Source: Eucommia ulmoides | Lineage: Eukaryota > Streptophyta > Magnoliopsida > Garryales > Eucommiaceae | Assembly (NCBI GenBank): GCA_016647705.1 | Contig: CM028335.1 | Coordinates: 10,678,905 to 10,742,904 of the forward strand | Direction of reading: 5' to 3' | Length of the DNA stretch: 64,000 nucleotides | Shown: in pieces, positions 12,491 to 61,697 of the stretch | Layout of the letters: every line of letters starts with the position of its first letter | Position numbering within the stretch: position 1 is the stretch's first letter | The notes under the pieces: generated by a model | The model's database searches: none | What the model saw: only the letters and a program-made list of their open reading frames with translations | What the model was told of the DNA's origin: nothing | Translations under genes and position numbers: made by a program

Positions 12491-14264
12491 TTGATAATCA
12501 TAAGGTCTGGTCAGGTAATCAGACAAAGAGACCAAACTCATGCAATGAATAGAAACCTGAATGATCAACCCTCTAGAGAAAGGGTCTTGAGATCTAACGC
12601 TAGGGCCCTTGACCCTACCAATGAAGACACACTACCCCCCATAGGCCAGACGGGTTCGTCGACCTTGCCCTCTGGACCTTTTGTGGGCCAGACCTCCGGA
12701 GGTGTTGAAGTTTCGAGGATCGACAACTTGGAATGCTGGCTAGATGAATTTCAAAACTACTTCTAGGTCTTCTTCTCCCGCCTGTGGCCGACCCCCTTTG
12801 AGGAGGGGTTGACTCTTTAGACCGCAGGGCGAGAGGAGCAGCCACAAGAATCTGAAGACCGTGTGATCCATTCTAATGGACACGTGCCGAGGGTCTGACT
12901 CTGACCCCGTAATCAAAGAGAAAGAGAGCGAGACTTGGCTCCCTCTGCTCCCTAAGGATCGCCATCACCGCCCCTGCTCTTGATCACCGCTGGGCAGAGC
13001 ACTTAGCCACGTTGCGAGGTCCAAGGGTAGGGCCTGATGTGCACGGGAGGTGGACTCTTACTCTCCACCATCTAGACGACAAGATGCCCATGCCACAACC
13101 AGCTATATGTGTGCAGCAACCTGAGTTGAGGCCGTCGTAGAGAGCTGCCTCGCCAACATAGAAGTAGTCTTTTCACCAGATACGGGGCACGGTGAGAGCA
13201 ATAAGACTTCCCATCGATGTGAGGTCCTCTTTTCTAAAGGACATCTTGGAAAAAGTGGTGCCCCACAGGTTCACCCACCCTAGATGAATCCTTATGACGG
13301 GGCCTTAGACTTAGTGGACCACTTAGCCATTCTTAAGTCCCATATGGATATGCATACTGCTACAGTGGCTCTGAGGTGCAAATCCTTTCCACTTACCCTT
13401 GCGGGAGCAGTTCGATCTTGGTTCCGAGATCTGGCCCCAGCCTCCATCTTTATTTTCTATAAACTCGAGAATCTCTTTCTTGTTTGGTTTAACCATTGGT
13501 GCAAAAGGCCAAAGACCATGATGTACATCCTCGCCCTCCAACAAGAGCTCGCCAAGAGCCTAGGCGATTATGTGGACCTCTTTGAGAAAGACTTTATTGC
13601 TTGTGAGGACTTCTCATATGTCGTGGCCCTAAACACCTTTATTGATGAACTTAGGCATAGGAGATTGTCTTATGACCTCTACTCCACTTCTGCACCCAAT
13701 CGTCGTGCGACCCTTGAAAGGGGCACCCAGTTCTACAATGCGGATCTAAGAGATAACGTCAAGAATGATCGAGAAGGAGGTCACAAAAAGAAAGGAAAGA
13801 CAAAAGAACTCCTGAGCAGGGCTCAGAGATCTAGAAGACTTTACACTGAAGGGAGGTTAGGACCTTTGCCCGGGGACCGGAGACTTCTCCTACCCTCAGG
13901 GGCTTCGCAAACAAGGGTTCACACTTCTGGCGGCCTCAATGGACACAATCTACGTAGAGAATGTTAGAAGGGAGTTCTTTTCCCCCCTCTACCTTTGAGG
14001 AAAAAATTGATGGGTAGATTTCTCCCTAAATATTGTGAATTTCACCGCGATTGGCGTTACGCCATGGAAGACTGTTTCCAACTCCGAGAGGAGATAGAAG
14101 CCCTCATGAGAAGAGGCTATCTCAGCAATTATATCTGTAGAGAAGATAGAGAGTTGAGGATCGAACAAAATAACCGTAGTGAGGAACACATGGGTCAGAG
14201 AAGAAGAGAAAACCACGGTCGTCCACCGCTCCGAGCTATCCCTACCCGTCTCTGTGGGGGTTAA
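12491..14264 (+). pseudogene. gag remnant of element 1
   Basis: An N-terminal piece (12491-12766) is followed by the capsid-like core at 13284-13967. The core shows the usual plant gag wording: YDGALDLVDHL, a CKSFPLTLAGAVRSWFRDLAP block and a YVDLFEKDF block. A nucleocapsid-like segment at 13995-14264 reads KYCEFHRDWRYAMEDC with EEIEALMRRGYL after it, where the usual knuckle Gly-His pair has become Arg-Tyr. Frameshifts or stops separate the pieces (about 12770-13280 and 13968-13994). In life, gag builds the cytoplasmic particle that packages the element RNA. Confidence 0.82.
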
Positions 14265-47563: not shown

Positions 47564-47573
47564 ATGATTTATT
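47564..47573 (+). repeat. Target-site duplication, left
   Basis: ATGATTTATT, identical to 61688-61697. Confidence 0.92.
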
Positions 47574-48100
47574 GAGTTGTTTACCTATTAAATATTAAAA
47601 AAAAAAAAAATTACTGAATGAGAATAGTTTTTAACTTATTTACGTGAATAATGCATTTCGCCCTTGTGAAGGGCGAAATCGAATTTTTTTTTTTTTTTTT
47701 TTTTTTTATCCCGCGCTTGTGAACAGCGGGATCAAAAAAAATTAATTTAATTTGATCCCGCCCTTGTGAAGGGCGGGATCAATCCCGCCCTTCACAAGGG
47801 CGGGATCAAATGGATTTTTTTATTTTTTTTAAAATGTGATCCCACCCTTATGAAGGGCGGGATCACCAAACGGCGACCAGCCGTTAACACGGCTGGTCGC
47901 CGTTTGCTTTGGCCGGTCAAACGACCGGCCAAAGCTGCAGAGAAGGCAGCCTAAAAAGGCTGCCTTTTCCCCTTTTTTTTTTTCGCAGGCTATTTTTTGT
48001 TTTTTTATAGGTATAGGTATAGGTTTAGCTTTAATTTGAAATTTTAAAATCTCGATATATGTGCACAATTTCGCCTATAAATATCACTTACCGGATTTCA
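47574..48100 (+). repeat. Left terminal inverted repeat, outer part with eight hairpins
   Basis: Outermost 80 bp are AT-rich. Then, at 47655-47968, come eight short palindromes. The first is ATTTCGCCCTT with its complement, followed by four of the ATCCCGCCCTT type (one pair abutting at 47754-47807, one with CGC/CAG changes in the stem). The last three are AACGGCGACCAGCCGT, CTTTGGCCGGTC and AAGGCAGCC stems with 3-6 base loops. The same eight recur in mirror order at 61274-61607. Confidence 0.88.
48075..48085 (+). promoter_or_regulatory. TATA box of the left (transposase) promoter
   Basis: CTATAAATATC, about 135 bp upstream of a GT splice donor and identical to the right-end copy at 61183-61193 on the minus strand. 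Transcription would start near 48107-48115. Confidence 0.7.
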
Positions 48101-48106
48101 TTAAAA

Positions 48107-48209
48107 TTCACATTTCTTCATTTACTCCTTCTCTCATTTGTTCTTCATTTTGATATTTTTTTGTTCTAGTTACACTTCTTCTATTCAGACTTCTACTCCT
48201 CTATTCACA
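48107..48209 (+). other. Predicted non-coding leader exon of the transposase transcript
   Basis: A pyrimidine-rich, ATG-poor leader ending TCTATTCACAG before the donor GTTAGTATA at 48210. The matching acceptor is proposed at AATGATAG (50968), 9 bases before the transposase start codon. The resulting intron is about 2.76 kb. Confidence 0.6.
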
Positions 48210-48539
48210 GGTTAGTATATTTTTAACGTTTTTTTAATTTATTTGTTAATTTAATTAGTATATTTTTTATCTTTATTTGTTAGTTAGTTGGTTAGTTTAA
48301 TTTGTTAATTTAATTGTTGAATTAAAAATTATACTTTGGTCATTTTTACATGTTTAAGAAAATATAAAATAATATATTATTTCAAAAAAAATGTTAGTTA
48401 GTTAGTTTAATTTTTTACTCTAGCTATTTAATTAAAAAAATATACACTTTGACCCCTAAAAGTATAACAACTAGAAAAATATAAATTTTTAATATATTAT
48501 TTTAAAATAAATTATTAGTTAGTTTGTTTGTTTTGTTAA

Positions 48540-50710
48540 TTTAATTTGTTTAATTAGTTGGTTAGTTTAATTTGTTAATTTAGTTGTTAAATTAAAAATT
48601 ACACTTTGTCTCCTTTCACATGTGTAGAAAAATATACACTTTGGCCCCTGAAATTTTTTCAATTACAAAAATATAAAATTTTCAACCTAACGTTTTAAAA
48701 TAAATTGTTAGTTAGTTTCATTTTTGAATTTTGTTATTTAATTTAAAATGTATTTATTTAATTTGTTAATTTAGTTGTTAAATTAAAAATTACACTTTCG
48801 CCCCATGTGTACGAAAATATAAATCAACATATTACATTTTTAGTTAGTTTAATTTTCTAATTTAGCTATTTAATTAAAAATACACTTTGGCCACTGAAAT
48901 TTTGATAATTAGAAAAATATAAAATTAAAATACCTATTATTTTGTTTAATTTGTTAATTTAGTTGTTAAATTAAAAATTACACTTTCGCCCCGTTCACAT
49001 GTGTAGGAAAATATAAATCAACATATTACATTTTTAGTTAGTTTAATTTTCTAATTTAGCTATTTAATTAAAAATATACACTTTGGCCCCTTAAATTTTG
49101 ATAATTAGAAAAATATAAAATTAAAATACCTATTATTTGTTTAATTTAGTTGTTAAATTAAAAATTACACTTTGTCTCCTTTCACATGTGTAGAAAAATA
49201 TACACTTTGGCCCCTGAAATTTTTTCAATTACAAAAATATAAAATTTTCAACCTAACGTTTTAAAATAAATTGTTAGTTAGTTTCATTTTTGAATTTTGT
49301 TATTTAATTTAAAATGTATTTATTTAATTTTTTAATTTAGTTGTTAAATTAAAAATTACACTTTCGCCCCATGTGTACGAAAATATAAATCAACATATTA
49401 CATTTTTAGTTAGTTTAATTTTCTAATTTAGCTATTTAATTAAAAATACACTTTGGCCACTGAAATTTTGATAATTAGAAAAATATAAAATTAAAATACC
49501 TATTATTTTGTTTAATTTGTTAATTTAGTTGTTAAATTAAAAATTACACTTTCGCCCCGTTCACATGTGTAGGAAAATATAAATCAACATATTACATTTT
49601 TAGTTAGTTTAATTTTGTAATTTAGCTATTTAATTAAAAATATACACTTTGGCCCCTTAAATTTTGATAATTAGAAAAATATAAAATTAAAATACCTATT
49701 ATTTGTTTAATTTAGTTGTTAAATTAAAAATTACACTTTGTCTCCTTTCACATGTGTAGAAAAATATACACTTTGGCCCCTGAAATTTTTTCAATTACAA
49801 AAATATAAAATTTTCAACCTAACGTTTTAAAATAAATTGTTAGTTAGTTTCATTTTTGAATTTTGTTATTTAATTTAAAATGTATTTATTTAATTTGTTA
49901 ATTTAGTTGTTAAATTAAAAATTACACTTTCGCCCCATGTGTACGAAAATATAAATCAACATATTACATTTTTAGTTAGTTTAATTTTCTAATTTAGCTA
50001 TTTAATTAAAAATACACTTTGGCCCCTGAAATTTTGATAATTAGAAAAATATAAAATTAAAATACCTATTATTTTGTTTAATTTGTTAATTTAGTTGTTA
50101 AATTAAAAATTACACTTTCGCCCCGTTCACATGTATAGGAAAATATAAATCAACATATTACATTTTTAGTTAGTTTAATTTTCTAATTTAGCTATTTAAT
50201 TAAAAATATACACTTTGGCCCCTTAAATTTTGATAATTAGAAAAATATAAAATTAAAATACCTATTATTTGTTTAATTTAGTTGTTAAATTAAAAATTAC
50301 ACTTTCGCCCCTTTCACATGTGTACGAAAATATACACTTTGGCCCTTGAAATTTTTTCAATTACAAAAATATTAAATATCAACCTATTGTTTTAAAATAA
50401 ATTGTTAGTTAGTTTCATTTTTTAATTTCGTTATTTAATTTAAAATGTATTTATTTAATTTGTTAATTTAGTTGTTAAATTAAAAATTACACTTTCGCCC
50501 CTTTCACATGTGTACGAAAATATACACTTTGGCTCTTGAAATTTTTTCAATTAGAAAAATATTAAATATTCAACCTATTGTTTTAAAATAAATTGTTAGT
50601 TAGTTTCATTTTTTAATTTCGTTATTTAATTTAAAATGTATTTATTTAATTTGTTAATTTAGTTATTAAATTAAAAATTACACTTTCGCCTCTTTCACAT
50701 TGGAATATGA
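48540..50710 (+). repeat. Left intronic array of ~188-bp tandem repeats (higher-order ~565 bp)
   Basis: About 12 copies of a unit containing CACTTTCGCCCC or CACTTTGTCTCC, ATGTGTA, CACTTTGGCCCCT and AAATTAAAAATTA. Marker positions near 48604, 48793, 48981, 49169, 49358, 49546, 49734, 49925, 50115, 50304, 50491 and 50682 give a period of about 188. The CTTTGTCTCC variant recurs every third unit (48604, 49169, 49734), so a 565-bp triplet was itself amplified. Confidence 0.88.
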
Positions 50711-50977
50711 TGTACAAATTGTGCACTTTCATTCCTCAAATTAATTGAATCTATTTAGTTGATATTAGCTTGACGTGGAATTTATATTCGATTTAGAGTT
50801 AAAGTTAAAATAATTATTGAATAAATTCAAAATAAGTAAAATATTAAGGATTGAAAATAAATTACTCTAACCCATAAAAAATGAACATTATAAACCAACA
50901 TACTTTTGTGATTGAGTTTTAGTTAACGATATTTTTTTCTTGTTTTGTTTTGCCTTGTCAAATGATAGCCGCTTGAA

Positions 50978-53778
50978 ATGGATCACGTTCGATTGTTATT
51001 GTATTGGGGTGGTAGAATATTGGAAGGTACGGAGTTCGGGGTTTGTTATAGTACATCAGTTGTAAAATCTTTGGTTGTCCGTAGGGGAACAAGCTTAAAT
51101 GAATTAATTGAGACGCTAAAACCATGTGTTCTTGAAGATGGGGTTACTGGAATTTTGAAACTAAAGTGTAGGATGCCGATGGCTCTTTTCGGGTCGAACT
51201 ATAAATATACCTTGTTTTCTATCGAGGATGACTCAGCATTAAACCAAGTGCTTGAGTTACCTCTTTATATACCCTCCCTTCTTGCTGTTGAAGTATATGT
51301 AGAGATAGAACGGGCATTTGATGATGGTCCAAATTTTTTTCCCCCAAGTGGTCATTTTACCAACTTAATGACCCAGAGTTTAAATCCGTACAGTACCCAA
51401 TCTGACGGACAATTTTTCGGCACCGTTCCCCAAGCAGTCCAATCTAATTACACCATCCCACCCCCTTACAGTCTAGAACAATATCATTCCCACAATACTC
51501 CTATGCTGCACCCCCAATTACTTGAGTCTAATTACACCGTCCCACTCCTCTATATTCCAGAGCAAGATCATTCTCATAGTATGATTGACCGTGGTCATGG
51601 CACCAGCTCTGCTCTTCCACATCCCCATTATTCACCGAGTAGTCCGCCGCAAGATAACATAAGTAATTATGGTGGTGACTTTGATACAATTGATAGTCGC
51701 GACGATGTGTCAGAAGAAGAGTTCGATGCGGATTTAGCGTTTCAGCCAGACGAAGATGTAGATACTGGGCCTAGCGGGCAAGGGGGTGAAAATCAGCAAT
51801 TGGAGTTAGACAATGTAATTTCATTTTTCAATAACTTGGAATGGGGTGACGACGATGACTTGGCGAAATACGAGCCGAAGTTGCGGAAGAATTTTTGGAC
51901 ACCGGAGATGGACGAATTCCGTACTGGTATGGTCTTTAAGGACAAGGAACATCTCCAGCAGGCCGTCAAATTTTACCACTTGAAAAAGAACAAAGAGTTT
52001 TATGTCTCGCAAACGAACAAGAAGCTCTGGTCGATTAATTGTTCGCATGGATGCGATTGGAGGTTGCGGGCGGGGAGGAAAAAAAGTCACGGTATGTTTG
52101 AGATTACACAGTATGAGGGGCAACACACATGTTTCTATAATCATACTGCTGTAGATCATAAAAATTTGGATTCTGCACTCATTTCGAACCTAATACTTGG
52201 ACAAGTAGAACAGGATCCAGAATTGAAGATTGGCGTCATTGTGGCTTACGTGAAGGAGGCTCATGGATACACTATCTCCTATAGAAAAGCTTGGTTGGCT
52301 AGATCTAAAGCCATTGAGACCTTGTTCGGAGATTGGGATGAATCATACCGGAAGTTACCGAAATTTATGGTCGCGTTGCAGCACTACAATGCAGGTACGA
52401 TTGTCGAGTGGCGCACTGTGTCGACTGATATGCCTGACTATAGGATGTTCGACATGGTATTTTGGGCATTCAAAGCTTCAGTCGACGGATGGCGTTATTG
52501 TCGCCCTGTAATCACCATTGACGGGACCCATTTGTATGGTAAATATGATGGAAAGATTTTAATCGCCATAGGAATGACGTCGTCCAACAAGTGCTACCCA
52601 TTGGCTTTTGCAGTCGTACCGACGGAGGATTACCGATGTTGGCGCTGGTTCATCTACATGCTTAAGCGTCATATTGTCGGTGATCGTCCTGAGGTTACAT
52701 TGATATCTGATAGACACGCCGGCATTATTAGTGCAGTTGACAATATTTGGCTTAATCAACATAACGAGCCCCTCCGATATCATCGATTTTGTTTGCGGCA
52801 CCTTTGTAGCAATTTCAATAAGATTGCTAAAAATCAGCATCTCAAAGATCTTGCTTGGAATGCAGGTGCTGCAACACAAATTCGAAAATACGATGCTATC
52901 ATGGAAGAGATCAAAAAGATTGATGTTCAGGCGCATGCATGGTTGAGCAATCATGCACCTTACAAATGGACCAGGGCACACGACAATGGTAAGCGTTGGG
53001 GAGTCATGACGACCAATTATGCAGAGGTATTTAACAATTGTTTAAAGGGTGCAAGAAATGTTCCAATAACTGCAGCCGTCAAGATTACGTTCTACAGGAT
53101 GGTTAAATACTTTGATATTGGTCGACAACAAGCTTTAAAGGACTCAGCTGACGGTTACGTATATGCTAAACACGTCGTTGATAAAATACAGAAATCTCAA
53201 GCCAAGTCTAAAACATACGAGATTCAAATATTCAATCGGTAATTTAGTATTCATTATTATTTTTTCACGTTACATATAATTGTTACGACATAATTTAACA
53301 ACTAAATATTTTTTTTTCTAGAGAGAATATGATCTTCCATGTGAAAACTAGGAAGACCCTTACTGGGGGCTTGATTCCTCATGAAGTCACACTAGGAGAT
53401 AACCCTGATTGCACATGTGGGAAGTTTAAAATTTGGCGATATCCGTGCTCCCATATGCTTGCGGCCACGGAGTATAGTGGAGTTAATGCATTCCGCTATA
53501 TTGCTGCTGAGTATACAATGACAAACCAATTGATGGCATGGGAGTCTTCGTTTAGGCCGATTCTTCATGAGGACTACTGGCTAGAGACCAATTTTCCGAA
53601 CCTCATTCCAGACCATGATAGACTTCGAGTTGTGCATCGTGGTCGACCCAATTCCACTCGCATTCAAAACGAGATGGATCAGTCGCGCAGAACAATGACA
53701 AATCGTTGCGGTTTATGTTCCCAAACTGGACATGATAGGCCAAAATGTCCATCCCGACCCCGCCATACACCCAATTGA
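50978..53778 (+). CDS. MURA-type (MULE) transposase, two exons, 905 aa
   Basis: Coding exons are 50978-53238 and 53322-53778. The donor CG|GTAATT and acceptor CTAG|AGAG join in phase to read IFNRENMIFHVKTRK. The N-terminal region (1-110) resembles the domain found at the start of many eudicot MULE proteins. An acidic, Pro/Tyr-rich linker follows (110-300). The MuDR DNA-binding zinc region is at about 307-385 (WTPEMDEF, CSHGCDWRLRAG, GQHTC). The DDE catalytic domain has D515 (TIDGTHL), D578 (ISDRHAG) and E683 (NYAEVFNN). The SWIM zinc finger has C784, C786, C796 and H798, and a CCHC knuckle has C883, C886, H891 and C896. Length and order fit the family, with no stops or missing catalytic residues. 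In the nucleus it should bind the element ends and catalyse cut-and-paste transposition. Confidence 0.95.
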
Positions 53779-53933
53779 TCTTATCGGTTTATTGTAATGA
53801 ATGTTTATGCTATTTTTTTTTGTTTTGTCAACTGTTATGTATTATAAATTCTATGCACTTGTTGCGCATATTGCCTTTATAATGAATCTTATATTTTGTT
53901 TATAAATATGATTAAATTTTAATTTCGTACTAA
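53733..53933 (+). repeat. Transposase 3'-end/spacer segment, inverted copy at 58056-58257
   Basis: This ~200-bp segment spans the last ~45 bases of the transposase CDS, its stop and most of the spacer to small gene 1, including a TATAAATA at 53901-53908. Its inverted counterpart lies just upstream of the PMD start codon. Shared words include AAATGTCCATCCCGACCC, CACCCAATTGATCTT and TTTATAAATATGATTAAA. Confidence 0.88.
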
Positions 53934-53950
53934 AATTAAAAGGATTGAAA

Positions 53951-54385
53951 ATGTACACGGTGAGAGATTTGTATCGTTCAATGGGACGTAACTGGCTTTT
54001 GGAAGACGAATTCTCATACTCTTTAGATCCAAGAGTTCGTTACTCTTCACGGTCGGTTGCAAGGATGCGGGAGGAATACACTTATCGTGTCAACCAATCA
54101 GAGGTTATGGTGGACGGATGCAGGCAATATAATATTCCAATAGTGCATCAATTGGCCAGAACAATGCCAACAGACACGCCGCATAATCTTCAAATGGCGT
54201 TGCATCGCTACCGTGAAGAAAATAACCGAATGCAAATTCGAATTTTTCGACATGAGCTTAAAACGACGGCACGTGAGTGTCTTGAACAAGGTTTGTTCGC
54301 CGAATCGCGTACTTACATGAGACATGCAAAGAGTCCTCAATATCAGTCAGATATTGAAATGTCTGATGATGAGAGTAATGTTTAA
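53951..54385 (+). CDS. Small MULE accessory gene 1, 144 aa, function unknown
   Basis: No known family was recognised. The ATG at 53951 is chosen because it follows a TATAAATA (53901) at a plausible distance and is the first ATG of the frame. The protein is basic in the centre and acidic at the end (SDIEMSDDESNV). Residues 39-48 (MREEYTYRVN), a Pro-containing segment (YNIPIVHQL) and 84-95 (LHRYREENNRMQ) align with small gene 2, so the two are paralogues. The 90-120 region is rich in Arg/Glu and likely helical. It lies 172 bp after the transposase stop on the same strand. By position it could be an accessory factor like those some MULEs encode beside the transposase, but no resemblance to MURB is visible. 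Confidence 0.75.
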   Translation: MYTVRDLYRSMGRNWLLEDEFSYSLDPRVRYSSRSVARMREEYTYRVNQSEVMVDGCRQYNIPIVHQLARTMPTDTPHNLQMALHRYREENNRMQIRIFRHELKTTARECLEQGLFAESRTYMRHAKSPQYQSDIEMSDDESNV

Positions 54386-54672
54386 TGAAGTAACGTTGGT
54401 GAATTGTAGTTTAATTATGTATTTCCTTTGAAATCTAATGTATCATTTCTACGTTAAATTATAATAACGTTACTTCTCCCAAACAACTGACTTTTTCTCT
54501 TTCAATTGATAGGTGATGTTGGGTTAGTTTTTTTTTTAATTTAAGGCTCGTATACATAAGTTATAAAACATAATTTTTCATTAATTATCTTTTTAAAAAA
54601 CTAATTTTTTTGTGAACTCTTAATTTGCAGTATAATATTTGTAAAGAAACTGTTCAGCCTATTATTTTCGTA

Positions 54673-55179
54673 ATGTCTTCACATATTAATTCAAGTGAAG
54701 AAAGTTCATATGGTTTTTCAAGTGAGGAGAACTCATATGGTGTTTGGGGTTGGCATGGACCGTGGGATCACCAAAGATGTTGGGTTTTAAAACCATATTA
54801 TGATGATTACTGGAGTGATCAAGAGACCAACCCGATAGAGTATCGCGTCGGTCTACGCCAAGAATGGGAATACAGGGTGAATGAGTCTAACAACCTTGTA
54901 TTTTGTTTGAGAAATCTTAATGCACCAGTTCCGCATCGTCGAAGTCTTCAGATGCCTCGACGATGTATAATTGATGACACAACCGAGATTGAAGATGCTA
55001 TTACACGAATTCGCCTGGAGAATAATCGAATGTTGTTGCGCAGAAATAGATATTATCTACTACAACTAGCCAATGAAATGGCTGCCGCAAGCAACAGAGC
55101 ACTCTCTCCAAACGAATACCATAACGTGATAAATAACAATGAATATTTGTCTGAGGGGTACATGTCGAATGAAGAATAA
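54673..55179 (+). CDS. Small MULE accessory gene 2, 168 aa, paralogue of gene 1
   Basis: Unrecognised protein. The frame is open further upstream, but the first ATG is at 54673 (MSSHINSSEESSYGF). A T-rich tract ending in TTTGCAG at 54630 looks like a splice acceptor, so a short leader exon probably precedes it; a candidate donor is GATAG|GTGATG near 54513. The Ser/Gly/Tyr/Trp-rich N-terminus (1-45) is unlike gene 1. The core shares LRQEWEYRVNESN (61-73), NAPVPH, a QMP word and TRIRLENNRMLLRR (111-124) with gene 1, and the tail is acidic (YMSNEE). It ends 438 bp from the convergent PMD stop. Confidence 0.75.
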   Translation: MSSHINSSEESSYGFSSEENSYGVWGWHGPWDHQRCWVLKPYYDDYWSDQETNPIEYRVGLRQEWEYRVNESNNLVFCLRNLNAPVPHRRSLQMPRRCIIDDTTEIEDAITRIRLENNRMLLRRNRYYLLQLANEMAAASNRALSPNEYHNVINNNEYLSEGYMSNEE

Positions 55180-55617
55180 TTAATTTTTTGCTCTGGTATT
55201 TTATTTTGGAGTGTTTTTATTGTCACTATTTTTATGATATTATGTACTGTATTTCTTATATACTGTCTTTGTTATGAGTTTTGTAACAAATATCGTTAAA
55301 TTTGTTTCCGTCTATGTAATATTTTTTTAATATAATATTTATGATTATTTTAACTTTAATCGCCTTTAATATTATACCGTTACGAGTTGTTTTGCCTTTT
55401 TAAGAATCTTTCCGGAATGTTAGACACATTGCTCGATCTCTCATTCAAATTCTGTATCTATTTGCGAAGCAATATATACGGTACATCAACAACTTTCTAA
55501 ATCTCCAGACGTTACAAAAAAATGTATTTACTAACTACATAAATTACTATATAACTATATATTTACAAAAAAAATGTATTTACATTTCTATAACTAAACT
55601 ATCAACTACATAACTAA

Positions 55618-58016
55618 TTATGTACCGCAAGGCCTCCGACGGACGTTCCTCCGCCCTCGTCGTTGTGCAACAGGAGGTTCCTCAGCCTCCTCATGAACTT
55701 GTGTAACTTGTCCGAAGTTCGTGAACGCCTGATGCATACTCCCCGGGATAGCATCGACGTCGTCCTCGAACCACGGCACCGGCGACACTTGTCTTTGCAA
55801 TCTTGTGGGTTCGGCAAATGCCACCGGAGGAATGACGCCTGAAGTTGAAATAAATTCATCCATCTCCGGAGTGACGAATGACGATGACGGGTGTGTACCT
55901 AGCTGCGATGCGTAATGCGAATAAGGGTCATGCATCTGGTACACGTTGGATGGCCCAGCATCGTCACCCATGCCGTACGAACTAGATGATACGGCATGAG
56001 CGCCCATGCCGTACGTACTAGATGATCCGGCATAAGCGCCCATGCCGTACGATGTAGAAGGTTCGGCATCGCCCACACTACCTGGACGATAGGCATCAGA
56101 AGTCCATGGCTGAGGAGAAGGCTGAGGAGCAGCCTGAGGAGATGAAGGAACGTCAGCTGCCACATGGCGTGGTACTCCTCGATACATCCTCCCAATGGTG
56201 CCATCATTGATGGCATGAGCCAGCTCGATACCCGATTCTGCAGTACCGGACCGTAGGGTTAGATCACTCAAGCGTATCAAGTTTGATACCTCCGTATCCT
56301 ACGAAACACATAAATTGGTTTAATTAATACATGAATAATAACAACATAATCTAACTCATATAACTAAACAGATGGTACAGTCAATGTGATCATACATCTA
56401 ATCCCAGTCGTCCTCCTATTGGTAGATACCCAAATTGAGGTTGGTACGCCGGGTTGACCAAAAATCTTCGTGTGATTCGCCAATACCAATCTATGTATTC
56501 TTGGTCAACCCCTATCCCTTGCTCAAAATTGGCGACATCTGGTGCTTGCCGATTATTCCACGCAACTATATGTGCATGGTGATGGTCAGCCCAGTTTGCA
56601 CGGAAGTATCCTCGCCGAGTAATTTTGTGCAAGTTCCTGTCCCACATTACCGGTTCAGGAACCCCTTGGCGATAACCAAACTGTCGTAGCACGCGGAGGG
56701 GATACGTGTACTCGACAATCTCATAGCATATTAGGGGCAACTTTGCCATCCAAATATCTTCTCCATCTTTAGTATATGGAGGCAAAGTCGGCAAGGTATA
56801 GGGCATCCAAATGACCTGTAAAATAAAATATAAACAAACAAATAAAAAAATTAAAATTTCGATATAAGTAAATAAATAACCTCGTCATTCTTCAAGCGAT
56901 CTAACTGATCGCGATACACCACCAAAATATGCATCGGCAAATTATCCAAATTAAATTGAAGAGTCCACCTGTACACCAAAAATATAAATCATAAGTTTAA
57001 TATCCATAAATAAATATCTATTACATGATAAATGAAATTAAAAATAAAATACTAATTACTTACCAATAACCCCTCGGAGCAGCTGGGAACTTCAAGTCGC
57101 CGTCGTAGTCGAGCTCTCCGAATGATATATTATAGTCGGGGAGAGGGACTACTTCAGGCCGAAGCCTTGGAAATCGCTCCCAAGCCCAACACTCCAACAA
57201 AAATAGGCACCCGGCAATGTGTTTCGTGTTGGGCTTCGTCGCCTTACAGAGCTCGCGGTAGAGGATCGCTAGGGTCGCACTGCCCCAGCTATACTTGACG
57301 AAAGGTGTCAAGTCACGCAGCAGTAGGAGGTAGGCTAACTTAACTCTGTTGTGTGATTTATCAGAAAACAACATCTCACCAAGCATAAGCAAGCAATATG
57401 CATGTGCGTAGCAATGCATAACCTCCTCGTCGGCCTCGTCAGGAACTATAGCAAAGGTATCCCGTAACCACTTCAGCGTCAAAGACCCATTCCTAATCTT
57501 ATCCACTGGTGGTTGTACTCCGAGTAGCTCACCGCAGAGTCTCTGCCAGACGGTATCCTCATGCGAGTCATCATTCTGGATAACTGGCAACCCATGCACG
57601 GGTAACCCCAATAAGACGGTCACGTCCTGCAATGTGACAGTCATCTCCCCGACGGGTAGATGGAAAGTGTGCATCTCTGGACGCCATCTCTCTACCAACG
57701 CGGTTATGAGGGCCCTATCTAACCGCTTCGGCCACAACCTAAATGGGCCGTACAAACCAACTGATTCTATTAACTGTATAACTCTAGGGGGGACATTTTC
57801 TCTCCATTCCCTTACATCGTGTCCAACACAGTCAAAAGTATTGATATCCTGAAATATTTAATAAGACATAATAAATAACATTAAAAAATTAAAAAACTTA
57901 AATAAAAAAAAAACAAATGCAATAACCTAAATGTTTACCTGCGCTAACCAAACTAGTTCGGACCTGTGCTGTCCCTGTTGGTGTAGAACTGAAGTATCTT
58001 CAGGCCCAGGATGCAT
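55618..58016 (-). CDS. Plant mobile domain (PMD, MAIN/MAIL-like) protein, five coding exons, 683 aa
   Basis: Minus-strand exons are 57939-58016 (residues 1-26, MHPGPEDTSVLHQQGQHRSE), 57064-57848, 56881-56968, 56396-56815 and 55618-56298. All introns have GT and AG ends and the frame carries through (78+785+88+420+681 bases). The PMD (aminotransferase-like plant mobile domain) spans roughly residues 40-430: WRPEMHTFHLPVGEMTVTLQ and DVTVLLGLPVHG, then LLRDLTPFVKYSWGSATLA, YRDQLDRL and VIWMPYT. The C-terminal exon is Pro/Ser-rich with four 12-residue repeats around YGMG or YQM (Tyr 541, 553, 565, 577). It ends RRGRRNVRRRPCGT, a tail typical of PMD-C proteins. Host relatives (MAIN, MAIL1) are nuclear and act in silencing and genome stability. 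No inactivating change is seen. Confidence 0.88.
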
Positions 58017-58055
58017 AGCTGAAATTTTTTCCCACAACACTCGTGGTAAATTTGT

Positions 58056-58257
58056 TAGTACGAAATTAAAATTTAATCATATTTATAAACAAAATATAAG
58101 ATTCATTATAAAGAAATGTGCGCGACAAGTACATAAAATTTATAATACATAAAAGTTGACATAACAAAAAAATAAAGTAGCATAAACATTCATTACAATA
58201 AACCGACAAGATCAATTGGGTGCAAGGCAGGGTCGGGATGGACATTTTCGCCTATCA
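58056..58257 (-). repeat. Inverted copy of the transposase 3' end, upstream of PMD
   Basis: Reverse complement of 53733-53933 with about 10% difference. It holds a non-functional fragment of the transposase C-terminal knuckle (GATAGGCGAAAATGTCC...), and a TATAAATA at 58080-58087 on the minus strand, 65-70 bases before the PMD ATG. It could give PMD a local promoter in addition to the end-repeat promoter. Confidence 0.88.
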
Positions 58258-58259
58258 AA

Positions 58260-60740
58260 ATTTAATAAATAAAATAACAAATTAAACAAATAATAGGTAT
58301 TTAAATTTTATATTTTTCTAATTGTCAAATTTTCAGGGGCCAAAGTGTATATTTTTAATTAAATAGCTAAATTAGAAAATTAAACTAACTAAAAATGTAA
58401 TATGTTGATTTATATTTTCCTACACATGTGAAAGGGGCGAAAGTGTAATTTTTAATTTAACAACTAAATTAAACAAATAATAGGTATTTTAATTTTATAT
58501 TTTTCTAATTATCAAAATTTAAGGGGCCAAAGTGTATATTTTTAATTAAATAGCTAAATTAAAAAATAAAACTAACTAAAAGTGTAATTTTTAATTTAAC
58601 AACTAAATTAACAAATTAAATAAATACATTTTAAATTAAATAACAAAATTCAAAAATGAAACTAACTAACAATTTATTTTAAAATAATAGGTTGAAAATT
58701 TTATATTTTTGTAATTGAAAAAATTTCAGGGGCCAAAGTGTATATTTTTCTACACATGTGAAAAGGGCGAAAGTGTAATTTTTAATTTAACAACTAAATT
58801 AACAAATTAAATAAATACATTTTAAATTAAATAACAAAATTCAAAAATGAAACTAACTAATAATTTATTTTAAAACAATAGGTTGATATTTAATATTTTT
58901 CTAATTGAAAAAATTTCAAGGGCCAAAGTGTATATTTTCGTACACATGTGAAAGGGGCGAAAGTGTAATTTTTAATTTAACAACTAAATTAACAAATTAA
59001 ATAAATATATTTTAAATTAAATAACGAAATTAAAAAATGAAACTAACTAATAATTTATTTTAAAACAATAGGTTGATATTTAATATTTTTCTAATTGAAA
59101 AAATTTCAAGGGCCAAAGTGTATATTTTCGTACACATGTGAAAGGGGCGAAAGTGTAATTTTTAATTTAACAACTAAATTAACAAATTAAATAAATACAT
59201 TTTAAATTAAATAACAAAATTAAAAAATGAAACTAACTAACAATTTATTTTAAAACAATAGGTTGAATATTTAATATTTTTCTAATTGAAAAAATTTCAA
59301 GGGCCAAAGTATATATTTTCGTACACATGTGAAAGGGGCGAAAGTGTAATTTTTAATTTAACAACTAAATTAAACAAATAATAGGTATTTTAATTTTATA
59401 TTTTTCTAATTATCAAAATTTAAGGGGCCAAAGTGTATATTTTTAATTAAATAGCTAAATTAAAAAATTAAACTAACTAAAAATGTAATATGTTGATTTA
59501 TATTTTCGTACACATGTGAACGGGGTGAAAGTGTAATTTTTAATTTAACAACTAAATTAACAAATTAAATAAATACATTTTAAATTAAATAACGAAATTA
59601 AAAAATGAAATTAACTAATAATTTATTTTAAAACAATAGGTTGAATATTTAATATTTTTCTAATTGAAAAAATTTCAAGGGCCAAAGTGTATATTTTCCT
59701 ACACATGTGAACGGGACGAAAGTATAATTTTTAATTTAACAACTAAATTAAACAAATAATAGGTATTTTAATTTTATATTTTTTTAATTATCAAAATTTA
59801 AGGGGCCAAAGTGTATATTTTTAATTAAATAGCTAAATTAAAAAATTAAACTAACTAAAATGTAATATGTTGATTTATATTTTCGTACACATGTGAAAGG
59901 GGCGAAAGTGTAATTTTTAATTTAACAACTAAATTAACAAATTAAATAAATACATTTTAAATTAAATAACAAAATTAAAAAATGAAACTAACTAACAATT
60001 TATTTTAAAACAATAGGTTGAATATTTAATATTTTTCTAATTGAAAAAATTTTAAGGGCCAAAGTATATATTTTCGTACACATGTGAAAGGGGCGAAAGT
60101 GTAATTTTTAATTTAACAACTAAATTAAACAAATAATAGGTATTTTAATTTTATATTTTTCTAATTATCAAAATTTAAGGGGCCAAAGTGTATATTTTTA
60201 ATTAAATAGCTAAATTAAAAAATTAAACTAACTAAAAATGTAATATGTTGATTTATATTTTCCTACACATGTGAATGGGGCGAAAGTGTAATTTTTAATT
60301 TAACAACTAAATTAACAAATTAAACAAAATAATAGGTATTTTAATTTTATATTTTTCTAATTATCAAAATTTCAGGGGCTAAAGTGTATTTTTAATAAAA
60401 TAGCTAAATTAGAAAATTAAACTGACTAAAAATGTAATATGTTGATTTATATTTTCGTACACATGGGGCGAAAGTGTAATTTTTAATTTAACAACTAAAT
60501 TAATAAATTAAATAAATACATTTTAAATTAAATAACAAAATTCAAAAATGAAACTAACTAACAATTTATTTTAAAACGTTAGGTCGAAAATTTTATATTT
60601 TTGTAATTGAAAAAATTTCAGGGGTCAAAGTGTATATTTTTCTACATATGTGAAAGGAGACAAAGTGTAATTTTTAATTTAACAACTAAATTAACAAATT
60701 AAACTAACCAACTAATTAAACAACTAAACCAACAAATTAA
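58260..60740 (-). repeat. Right intronic array of ~188-190-bp tandem repeats
   Basis: Reverse-complement counterpart of the left array. Marker word GGGGCGAAAGTG or variants occurs near 58436, 58760, 58954, 59142, 59334, 59523, 59715, 59899, 60090, 60282, 60466 and 60655, about 188-192 apart except near the inner edge. The order of variants differs from the left array, so the arms have been reshuffled independently. Confidence 0.87.
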
Positions 60741-61059
60741 ATTAACAAAACAAACAAACTAACTAATAATTTATTTTAAAATAATATATTAAAAATTTAT
60801 ATTTTTCTAGTTGTTAAACTTTTAGGGGTCAAAGTGCATATTTTTTTTAATTAAATAGCTAGAGTAAAAAATTAAACTAACTAACTAACATTTTTTTTAA
60901 AATAATATATTATTTTATATTTTCTTAAACATGTGAAAATGGTCAAAGTATAATTTTTACTTCAACAATTAAATTAACCAACTAACTAACAAATAAAGGT
61001 AAAAAATATACTAATTAAATTAACAAATAAATTAAAAAAACGTTAAAAATATACTAACC

Positions 61060-61155
61060 TGTGAATAGAGGAGTAGAAGTCTGAATAGAAGAAGTATAAC
61101 TAGAACAAAAAATATCAAAATGAAGAACAAATGAGAGAAGGAGGAAATGAAGAAA
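61060..61155 (-). other. Predicted non-coding leader exon of the PMD transcript
   Basis: Mirror of 48107-48209: ends in CTATTCACAG before a GTTAGTATA donor (61058 leftwards). The matching acceptor is TTTCAG|CT immediately before the PMD ATG (exon starts 58018). The intron is about 3.04 kb and includes the repeat array and the transposase-derived segment. Confidence 0.6.
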
Positions 61156-61159
61156 TGTG

Positions 61160-61687
61160 AATTTTAATGAAATCCGGCAAGTGATATTTATAGGCGAAGT
61201 TGTGCACATATACCGAGATTTCAAAAATTCAAAAATTCAAATTCAAAAGGGAGAGGGGAAAGGGAGGGGGGAAAGAAGCAGCCTAAAGGCTGCCTTCTCT
61301 GCAGCTTTGGCCGGTCGTTTGACCGGCCAAAGCAAACGGCGACCAGCCGTGTAAACGGCTGGTCGCCGTTTGGTGATCCCGCCCTTCATAAGGGCGGGAT
61401 CACATTTTAAAAAAAAAAAAAAAATTCATTTGATCCCGCCCTTGTGAAGGGCGGGATCAAATAAAAAAAAAAAAAAAATTATTGATCCCGCCCTTCGCAA
61501 GGGCGGGATCAAATTAAATTAATTTTTTTTGATCCCGCTGTTCACAAGCGCGGGATCAAAAAAAAAAAAAAAAAAAATTTCGATTTCGCCCTTCACAAGG
61601 GCGAAATGCATTATTCACGTAAATAAGTTAAAAACTATTTTCATTCAGTAATTTTTTTTTTTTTAATATTTAATAGGTAAACAACTC
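61160..61687 (-). repeat. Right terminal inverted repeat, outer part with eight hairpins
   Basis: Mirror of the left end. Hairpins at 61274-61607 show the same eight stems, with compensating or small changes in some: one loop reads TTCGCAA instead of TTCACAA, and one stem has CTG/CGC. The distal ~80 bp end at GGTAAACAACTC. Confidence 0.88.
61183..61193 (-). promoter_or_regulatory. TATA box of the right (PMD) promoter
   Basis: CTATAAATATC on the minus strand, identical to the left-end box, about 125 bp before the shared splice donor. Confidence 0.68.
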
Positions 61688-61697
61688 ATGATTTATT
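61688..61697 (+). repeat. Target-site duplication, right
   Basis: ATGATTTATT, identical to 47564-47573. Confidence 0.92.

Follow-up and report, generated by a model that had tools for sequence, protein, structure and literature searches.

A probably chimeric, recently amplified Mutator-like element with an opposed PMD gene in Eucommia ulmoides

The window analysed here is a 64-kb stretch of Eucommia ulmoides DNA (64,000 nucleotides; assembly GCA_016647705.1, contig CM028335.1, positions 10,678,905 to 10,742,904), and it carries a four-gene Mutator-like element (MULE). The element proper occupies 14,114 bp at 47574-61687, without its two target site duplications. The copies of ATGATTTATT at 47564-47573 (left) and 61688-61697 (right) form a perfect 10-bp duplication and abut the GAGTTGTTTACC ends of the element from outside. 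The exact 12-mer GAGTTGTTTACC occurs twice in the window, at both element ends and nowhere else. A first-pass annotation, made from the letters of this DNA, had described a complete MULE with matching ends and a perfect 10-bp duplication at 47564..61697. The description was borne out by the sequence and by alignment of the arms; the coordinates locate both duplications correctly and exceed the element proper by these two repeats.

The MURA transposase gene lies on the plus strand (exons 50978-53238 and 53322-53778) and codes for 905 amino acids with three Pfam domains above cut-off, MULE (PF10551, E = 4.5e-17), DBD_Tnp_Mut (PF03108, 1.6e-7) and SWIM (PF04434, 3.2e-6). It is followed on the same strand by two small genes, sA (53951-54385, 144 amino acids) and sB (54673-55179, 168 amino acids). 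Each is one uninterrupted frame, and the two proteins share 33% identity over 108 amino acids (E = 3e-11 for the single comparison). The plant mobile domain (PMD) gene is set on the minus strand at 55618-58016 (exons 58016-57939, 57848-57064, 56968-56881, 56815-56396 and 56298-55618; 683 amino acids). Its exon 2 matches PF10536 on that strand with E = 4.8e-58. Used as a query against PDB sequences, this exon had no hit at E <= 0.01. All five predicted introns, one in MURA and four in PMD, are GT-AG. The first-pass calls of a MURA transposase and of four open genes with canonical splice sites therefore hold. The MULE/Mutator superfamily is marked by a 9-11 bp target site duplication, terminal inverted repeats common to the family, and a transposase with MuDR DNA-binding and SWIM domains, and all of these are present here (the duplication is exactly 10 bp in the window). 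Pack-MULEs have no transposase of their own, whereas MURA is open in this element.

The outer parts of the terminal inverted repeats lie at 47574-48220 (left, plus strand, with the GAGTTGTTTACC end) and 61049-61687 (right, minus strand, with palindromes). Each borders a tandem array: the left one (48221-50700, plus) has units of about 190/375 bp and the right one (58266-61048, minus) is its mirror. When the arms were aligned globally, identity was 94-99% in all but one of the first 16 100-column blocks and 62% in the exception, block 400-499. The inner arms to about 3.2 kb gave mostly 88-99% per block, apart from a large gap at about 1800-2000 and weak blocks around 2600-2800, which a tandem array would be expected to produce; beyond about 3.2 kb the identity was at background level. 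Divergence between the two arms was considered as a clock and rejected, because the arms of an element with terminal inverted repeats need not match and may differ already at insertion. The motif ACTTT[GC]GC occurs 20 times in the left array (48217-50700) and 20 times in the right one (58266-61048), against 4 occurrences when both strands of 47.5 kb of the window are counted.

Both arms also contain, at mirrored positions, a TATAAATA box (48076-48083 and 61185-61192) and a CTATTCACAG|GTTAGT donor (its GT at 48211 in the left arm, about 61058 in the right). On sequence grounds these are putative promoters and putative donors of the 5' untranslated region (5'UTR), and the mirrored TATA and splice-donor sequences agree with the mirrored promoters of the first-pass annotation. 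Both gene sets may therefore start inside the end repeats, with each array placed within a 5'UTR intron; one end promoter would drive MURA-sA-sB and its mirror would drive PMD. Maize MuDR is similar in this respect, having convergent genes driven from mirrored terminal repeats.

Perfect G+C-rich palindromes cluster within the outermost 480 bp of the end repeats (47655-47966 in the left arm, mirrored in the right). They number 4 and 5 per arm in the window, and 6 and 4, 3 and 2, and 1 and 3 in the elements of contigs C67, C83 and C15 described below. The control gave at most 1 in 60 shuffles each, and the rest of the window holds 4. Their sequences differ from lineage to lineage.

The genome searched comprised 946.7 Mb in 391 contigs. 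A 327-base end probe gave 145 rows (614 candidates, 40 of them scored); the best 40 rows cover most of the probe and the others are short palindrome cross-matches at the same places. Ten relatives of 20 kb each were taken for comparison. Eight of them have matches to all four genes in the order of the window, and two (C2_1.5 and C16_52) have internal deletions. In C49 the right end was not found within its 20 kb and PMD is cut short. Six of the nine relatives with both ends have an exact 10-bp duplication; in the others it matches at 9 of 10 bp (C5_42), lies in a TA run (C5_0.5) or is reduced to 5 bp (C6_6.4). The 7-kb cores of the window and nine relatives (C16_52 was left out) differ pairwise by 0.16-0.83%. 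On this divergence a recent spread of the element is supported, in line with the recent insertion proposed earlier. Other copies with the same ends had been named beforehand as a check. They were found, and since independent copies repeat both the ends and the junctions, we regard an assembly artefact as very unlikely.

In the ten cores, window included, the full-length frame is open in eight for MURA, eight for sA, nine for sB and six for PMD, and all four frames are open in five (the window, C5_60, C11_5.5, C6_31 and C8_6). The MURA frame and its splice sites are kept in seven of the nine related cores. The splice sites present in these nine are the same, except for the donor of PMD intron 3, which is deleted in C6_6.4 and changed in C2_1.5. 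Codons private to the window number three in MURA, one in sA and five in PMD, four of the last five altering the residue.

Gene order across the genome was scored on the best 150 of 1487 candidates for sB, the best 146 of 1711 for PMD exon 2 and the best 150 of 4000 for a 200-amino-acid piece of MURA. PMD lies within 8 kb of sB in 95 of the 150 best sB matches, and in all 95 it is opposed and downstream. Among the 150 best MURA matches the order of the window is found in 59 (window included). An intermediate order, with PMD on the MURA strand and sB opposed, is found in 10, and PMD on the MURA strand with no sB match in 12. PMD is opposed with no sB match in 9, sB occurs without a PMD match in 6, and 54 have neither within 9 kb. 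Twelve of the 59 window-type copies have an open MURA exon 1 (757 codons) and stop-free sB and PMD exon 2, as judged by eye; this count covers those three parts, and sA and the other exons were covered in the fetched copies only.

Two further lineages are each represented by one full copy. That of lineage B (C67:568336-580101), with a perfect 10-bp duplication CTATTTAATA, has sA and sB behind its left end; its right end is followed by PMD and a decayed MURA on one strand. Ten further sB copies have 87-90% identity, and in none of the nine that have sA was a MURA match found in about 500 bp upstream of it. The full copy of lineage C (C83:275867-285430; duplication matching at 8 of 10 positions) reads MURA and PMD in that order from one end; neither sA nor sB had a match in it. 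Identities in the ten copies of intermediate order are 91-97% for MURA, 90-98% for sB and 86-91% for PMD. In the 59 window-type copies they are 91-100%, 92-100% and 88-100% (at least 92% for PMD in 55 of 59). The 12 collinear copies without sB have PMD identities of 73-75% in nine and 87-90% in three, and these values place the intermediates closer to the window than the nine C-like copies.

An element of 9.4 kb at C15:42258088-42267495 (L046, L043, L047), with a perfect duplication GTTATTATTA and array-like arms, contains sA (3 stops), sB and PMD. It was considered as the intermediate and dropped, since no MURA turned up in the stretches fetched, 42255000-42261400 and 42264240-42270400, which leave a gap of 2.8 kb; we now interpret it as the intermediate order reduced by a deletion.

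The junctions retain the history of the order. Directly upstream of PMD in the window, at 58017-58257 on the minus strand, lie the last MURA codons and the original MURA-PMD leader, ending at a deletion junction at 58257. A MURA-to-PMD leader of the same kind is present in C67, C83 and the intermediates on C5, C9 and C4 (short junction pieces). On the other side, the stretch 53733-53933 (plus strand) comprises the 3' end of MURA and the older MURA-PMD leader, now joined to sA: the MURA-sA leader matches the MURA-PMD leader up to GTACTAA at 53933 and continues as the sA leader. Upstream of the sA leader in C9, C4 and C15 there is array-like DNA instead, and the C5 piece contains array only, with the start of sA not covered. 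In our own reading the switch point falls at a shared TAA, and the end of the MURA loss on the PMD side at a shared TGATA. Both MURA tails occur in eight of ten copies (window included), the left only in C49 and the right only in C2_1.5. Nine left-arm tails form one clade with support of 100/98; the right tails do not separate from the intermediates in the tail tree. Because the MURA tail and PMD leader persist upstream of PMD, the gene order of the window is best read as derived from a collinear MURA-PMD order, and the MURA remnant beside PMD as a fossil of that order. The first-pass annotation had overlooked both this derived order and the mosaic look of the element.

If the collinear MURA-PMD order is the older one, then we can ask: From which lineage did the sA-sB unit come? 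The synonymous divergence (dS) between the window and lineage B is 0.22 for sA and 0.32 for sB (over 90-100 synonymous sites), 1.0 for PMD, and 0.50-0.76 in three pieces of MURA with 1.36 in a short fourth. Between the window and lineage C it is 0.38-0.43 for MURA and 0.34-0.48 for PMD, and between B and C it is 0.62-0.98 for MURA and 0.96 for PMD (1.44 in a short piece). Taken as they are, these values would make the sA-sB unit younger between the window and B than the other genes. The similarity also switches at 53932-53933, where the match to C83 stops and the match to C67 starts. The lower dS of sA-sB and this switch argue for uptake of sA-sB by a C-like element, and suggest that sA-sB came from a B-like lineage and MURA and PMD from a C-like one. 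We consider it likely that the element is a chimeric, apparently autonomous and recently amplified MULE with an opposed PMD gene, a mosaic of two older lineages. A C-like MURA-PMD element would have acquired an sA-sB unit that faced it and was akin to the one in B elements. An arm, consisting of array, MURA and PMD leader, would then have been copied in inverted orientation onto the sA side and joined at the TAA microhomology, after which MURA would have been lost from the PMD side at the TGATA microhomology.

Several points weigh against this history. The tail tree leaves 11 of its 13 inner forks open, and its bootstrap had not converged. The gene-order counts rest on best-scored matches only, so that 'no match' is weak evidence of absence, and in PMD and MURA identity the intermediates reach into the lowest values of the window type. 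The dS values of sA and sB come from few sites, the genes of C67 and C83 are decayed (MURA among them), and some of the dS pieces enter introns or poorly aligned stretches, by which dS is inflated. In addition, the near-identical copy C6_6.4 (C6:6402897-6416731) has flanks that share only 5 bp, perhaps through recombination between copies.

The sA-sB unit might also have been inherited vertically with MURA and PMD, with gene conversion, constraint on codons or a locally slower rate behind its low dS. The two genes are short and their counts small, and lineage C, seen in a single full copy, could have lost them. This course of events would leave the sharp switch at 53932-53933 to be accounted for, and the gap between 0.22-0.32 and 0.50-1.0 is large. 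Moreover, the MURA and PMD of C83 resemble those of the window more closely than the C67 genes do, yet C83 has no match to sA or sB. We therefore regard vertical inheritance as rather unlikely.

The small proteins were compared at several levels. Neither sA nor sB had a Pfam match at E <= 0.1, and sA alone had no database relative at E <= 0.01. A joint sA and sB profile found 27 matches among 5.8 billion proteins, in a search that requires shared 5-residue words and that distant links can escape. The organisms named are Rhododendron, Vaccinium, Camellia and Daucus, all asterids. The claim of two unknown paralogous small proteins stands as to paralogy, and the family is not confined to the element. 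ENNRM is invariant in 24 aligned family sequences (a smaller alignment includes two copies with ENNQM and ENNRI), and most members end in an acidic stretch. An AlphaFold2 model of sB from the 24 sequences has two long helices and a mean pLDDT (predicted local distance difference test) of 72.6, with residues 1-34 below 50; an earlier model, built on 12 sequences, was weaker. When the sB model was compared with PDB folds, nothing matched at E <= 0.001. One Rhododendron griersonianum predicted protein (P0003) joins an sB-like stretch to a piece of a D-isomer dehydrogenase domain, either a gene-prediction fusion or a gene capture.

Selection was evaluated as the ratio of nonsynonymous to synonymous divergence (dN/dS). 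Between the window and B it is 0.13-0.18 for sB in 11 of 11 comparisons and 0.27-0.45 for sA in 9 of 9 (L041, whose sA is split, was left out, and L035 lacks an sA match); for PMD it is 0.22 against B and 0.35-0.38 against C. By these ratios sA and sB are under purifying selection between lineages. On the other side, the window-B comparisons all include the window branch and so lack independence, and pairs within B have few changes and widely scattered ratios. The closer decayed copies L042 and L043 give 1.45 and 0.86 for sA and 0.54 and 0.74 for sB. Among the young copies the corresponding polymorphism ratio (pN/pS) is 0.75 for MURA, 0.92 for sA, 0.34 for sB and 0.43 for PMD, the variant sites being few and mostly C to T and G to A. 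Long-term constraint together with recent decay of inserted copies fits both patterns. Since sA and sB show the signature of purifying selection between lineages, have asterid relatives and belong to no Pfam family, they probably serve the element.

As is general for MULEs, MURA would bind the end repeats and move the element by cut-and-paste. The sA and sB proteins, helical in form, could assist or regulate transposition or silencing; PMD would most likely interfere with a host silencing route of the MAIN/MAIL type. Helper and anti-silencing roles are favoured because sA, sB and PMD are conserved between lineages while the arrays and palindromes change. Nevertheless, the assignment of any single role to these accessory proteins is tentative.

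The small proteins could act like VANC, binding the lineage-specific tandem repeats of the arms and removing silencing marks. The mirrored noncoding arrays, with their excess of ACTTT[GC]GC, would suit this role, and so would the C83 slice, which has none of these motifs and carries a related one, TTTGACCC, instead; the extract of PMC5735166 describes the VANC targets as noncoding tandem repeats that vary between related elements. Arabidopsis VANDAL elements (vanA, vanB, vanC) likewise combine a transposase with two more proteins and with noncoding tandem repeats that differ between related elements. The element of the window differs from them in having long, matching end repeats where VANDALs have absent or short degenerate ones, arrays in mirrored arms, and small proteins without a Pfam match. 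ACTTT[GC]GC is absent from the C67 slice also, and two C15 slices contain 11 and 2. K-mer counts on one strand revealed no 8-mer or 10-mer, within the chosen G+C content, that the slices of lineage A, C83 and C67 all share, the C67 slice not being established as array, so that the motif argument rests on lineage A. No VANC and no Arabidopsis protein is named among the 27 profile matches (VANC was not compared directly), and the fold search was negative. We consider a VANC-like function rather improbable.

A role in integration or regulation, like that of maize MURB, has about the same standing. Both are small second proteins travelling with MURA, and mudrB is apparently required for integration according to the extract of PMC6446971. 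MuDR (mudrA/mudrB), as given there, likewise has a transposase and an accessory gene. The element of the window differs in having four genes and a PMD. No MURB and no maize protein is named among the 27 matches of the 5-residue-word search, which leaves room for a distant link (MURB was not compared directly).

A wider idea, which we consider quite unlikely, is that sA, sB and PMD form an exchangeable 'survival cassette' traded by MULE lineages, with sA and sB reading their own lineage's fast-changing arrays and PMD blocking one route of host silencing. If this were true, the move of MURA to the sA-sB arm would have put transposase and anti-silencing functions under one promoter, and this arrangement would have set off the present burst. 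The GC palindromes, alike in form and not in sequence, would then be transposase sites read by structure.

Could sA, sB and PMD instead be passengers, host gene fragments captured by transduplication with no role in the life cycle? MULEs do capture host genes, and in the extract of PMC5418596 Ikeda et al. infer that the PMDs of MULEs descend from host PMD-C genes. The sA ratios near or above 1 in the young and the decayed copies would also agree. The low between-lineage dN/dS of sB, sA and PMD argues against passengers, as does the constant opposed and downstream position of PMD in the 95 of 150 best sB matches, and this explanation is very unlikely. That the order of the window, MURA-sA-sB facing PMD, should be ancestral and the collinear one later is hardly credible, for although no other class is as frequent in the best-scored MURA matches, the MURA 3' remnant runs into PMD here as in C67, C83 and three intermediates, and the full copies of lineages B and C are both collinear.

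The first-pass annotation had contrasted the element, with its PMD protein, to MULEs that mostly encode only a transposase. The gene is present; its novelty falls away, since the 2019 survey (PMC6446971) has PMD in antisense in most members of the MUDR group and lists MULE-Solanaceae_1 with 'unknown ORF and PMD (antisens)', where ORF is open reading frame. MUDR (group 50) and MULE-Solanaceae_1 (group 42) of its Table 1 share with our element a SWIM-finger transposase, a 9-10 bp duplication and a separate PMD gene opposed to the transposase, and group 42 also has the ORF just quoted. Our element differs from these groups in its two paralogous small genes between MURA and PMD and in its apparently derived gene order. 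Its arms are alignable over about 3.2 kb, against 14-500 bp (text) or up to 640 bp (table). The PMD-C fusions of grass and Amborella MULEs are also MULE-carried PMD proteins; according to the extract of PMC5418596 they are fused to the transposase, whereas the PMD of the window is a separate and opposed gene. Ikeda et al. there call it a tempting speculation that the captured PMD serves anti-silencing. In the literature searched, including extracts of PMC10398659 and PMC6419827, we noticed no description of an sA/sB family or of such a gene-order swap, which is not proof of absence. What is new here is the history, the derived order and the likely mosaic; an opposed PMD in a MULE was already published.

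The element is a junction-resolved example of a DNA transposon that would have acquired genes and changed their order, and a single genome contains the other lineages, the intermediates and the recent burst. The analysis further indicates a family of small proteins borne by transposons, which have relatives in asterids, evolve under purifying selection and lack a known domain; they adjoin a PMD gene of a type for which others have suggested an anti-silencing role. The natural variants in gene order and content make the function of MULE accessory genes testable.

Remains of other mobile elements surround the MULE in the window. An open frame at 13284-13967 has a gag match (PF03732) just under the cut-off, and another at 39071-39598 matches Transposase_28, 'putative gypsy type'.

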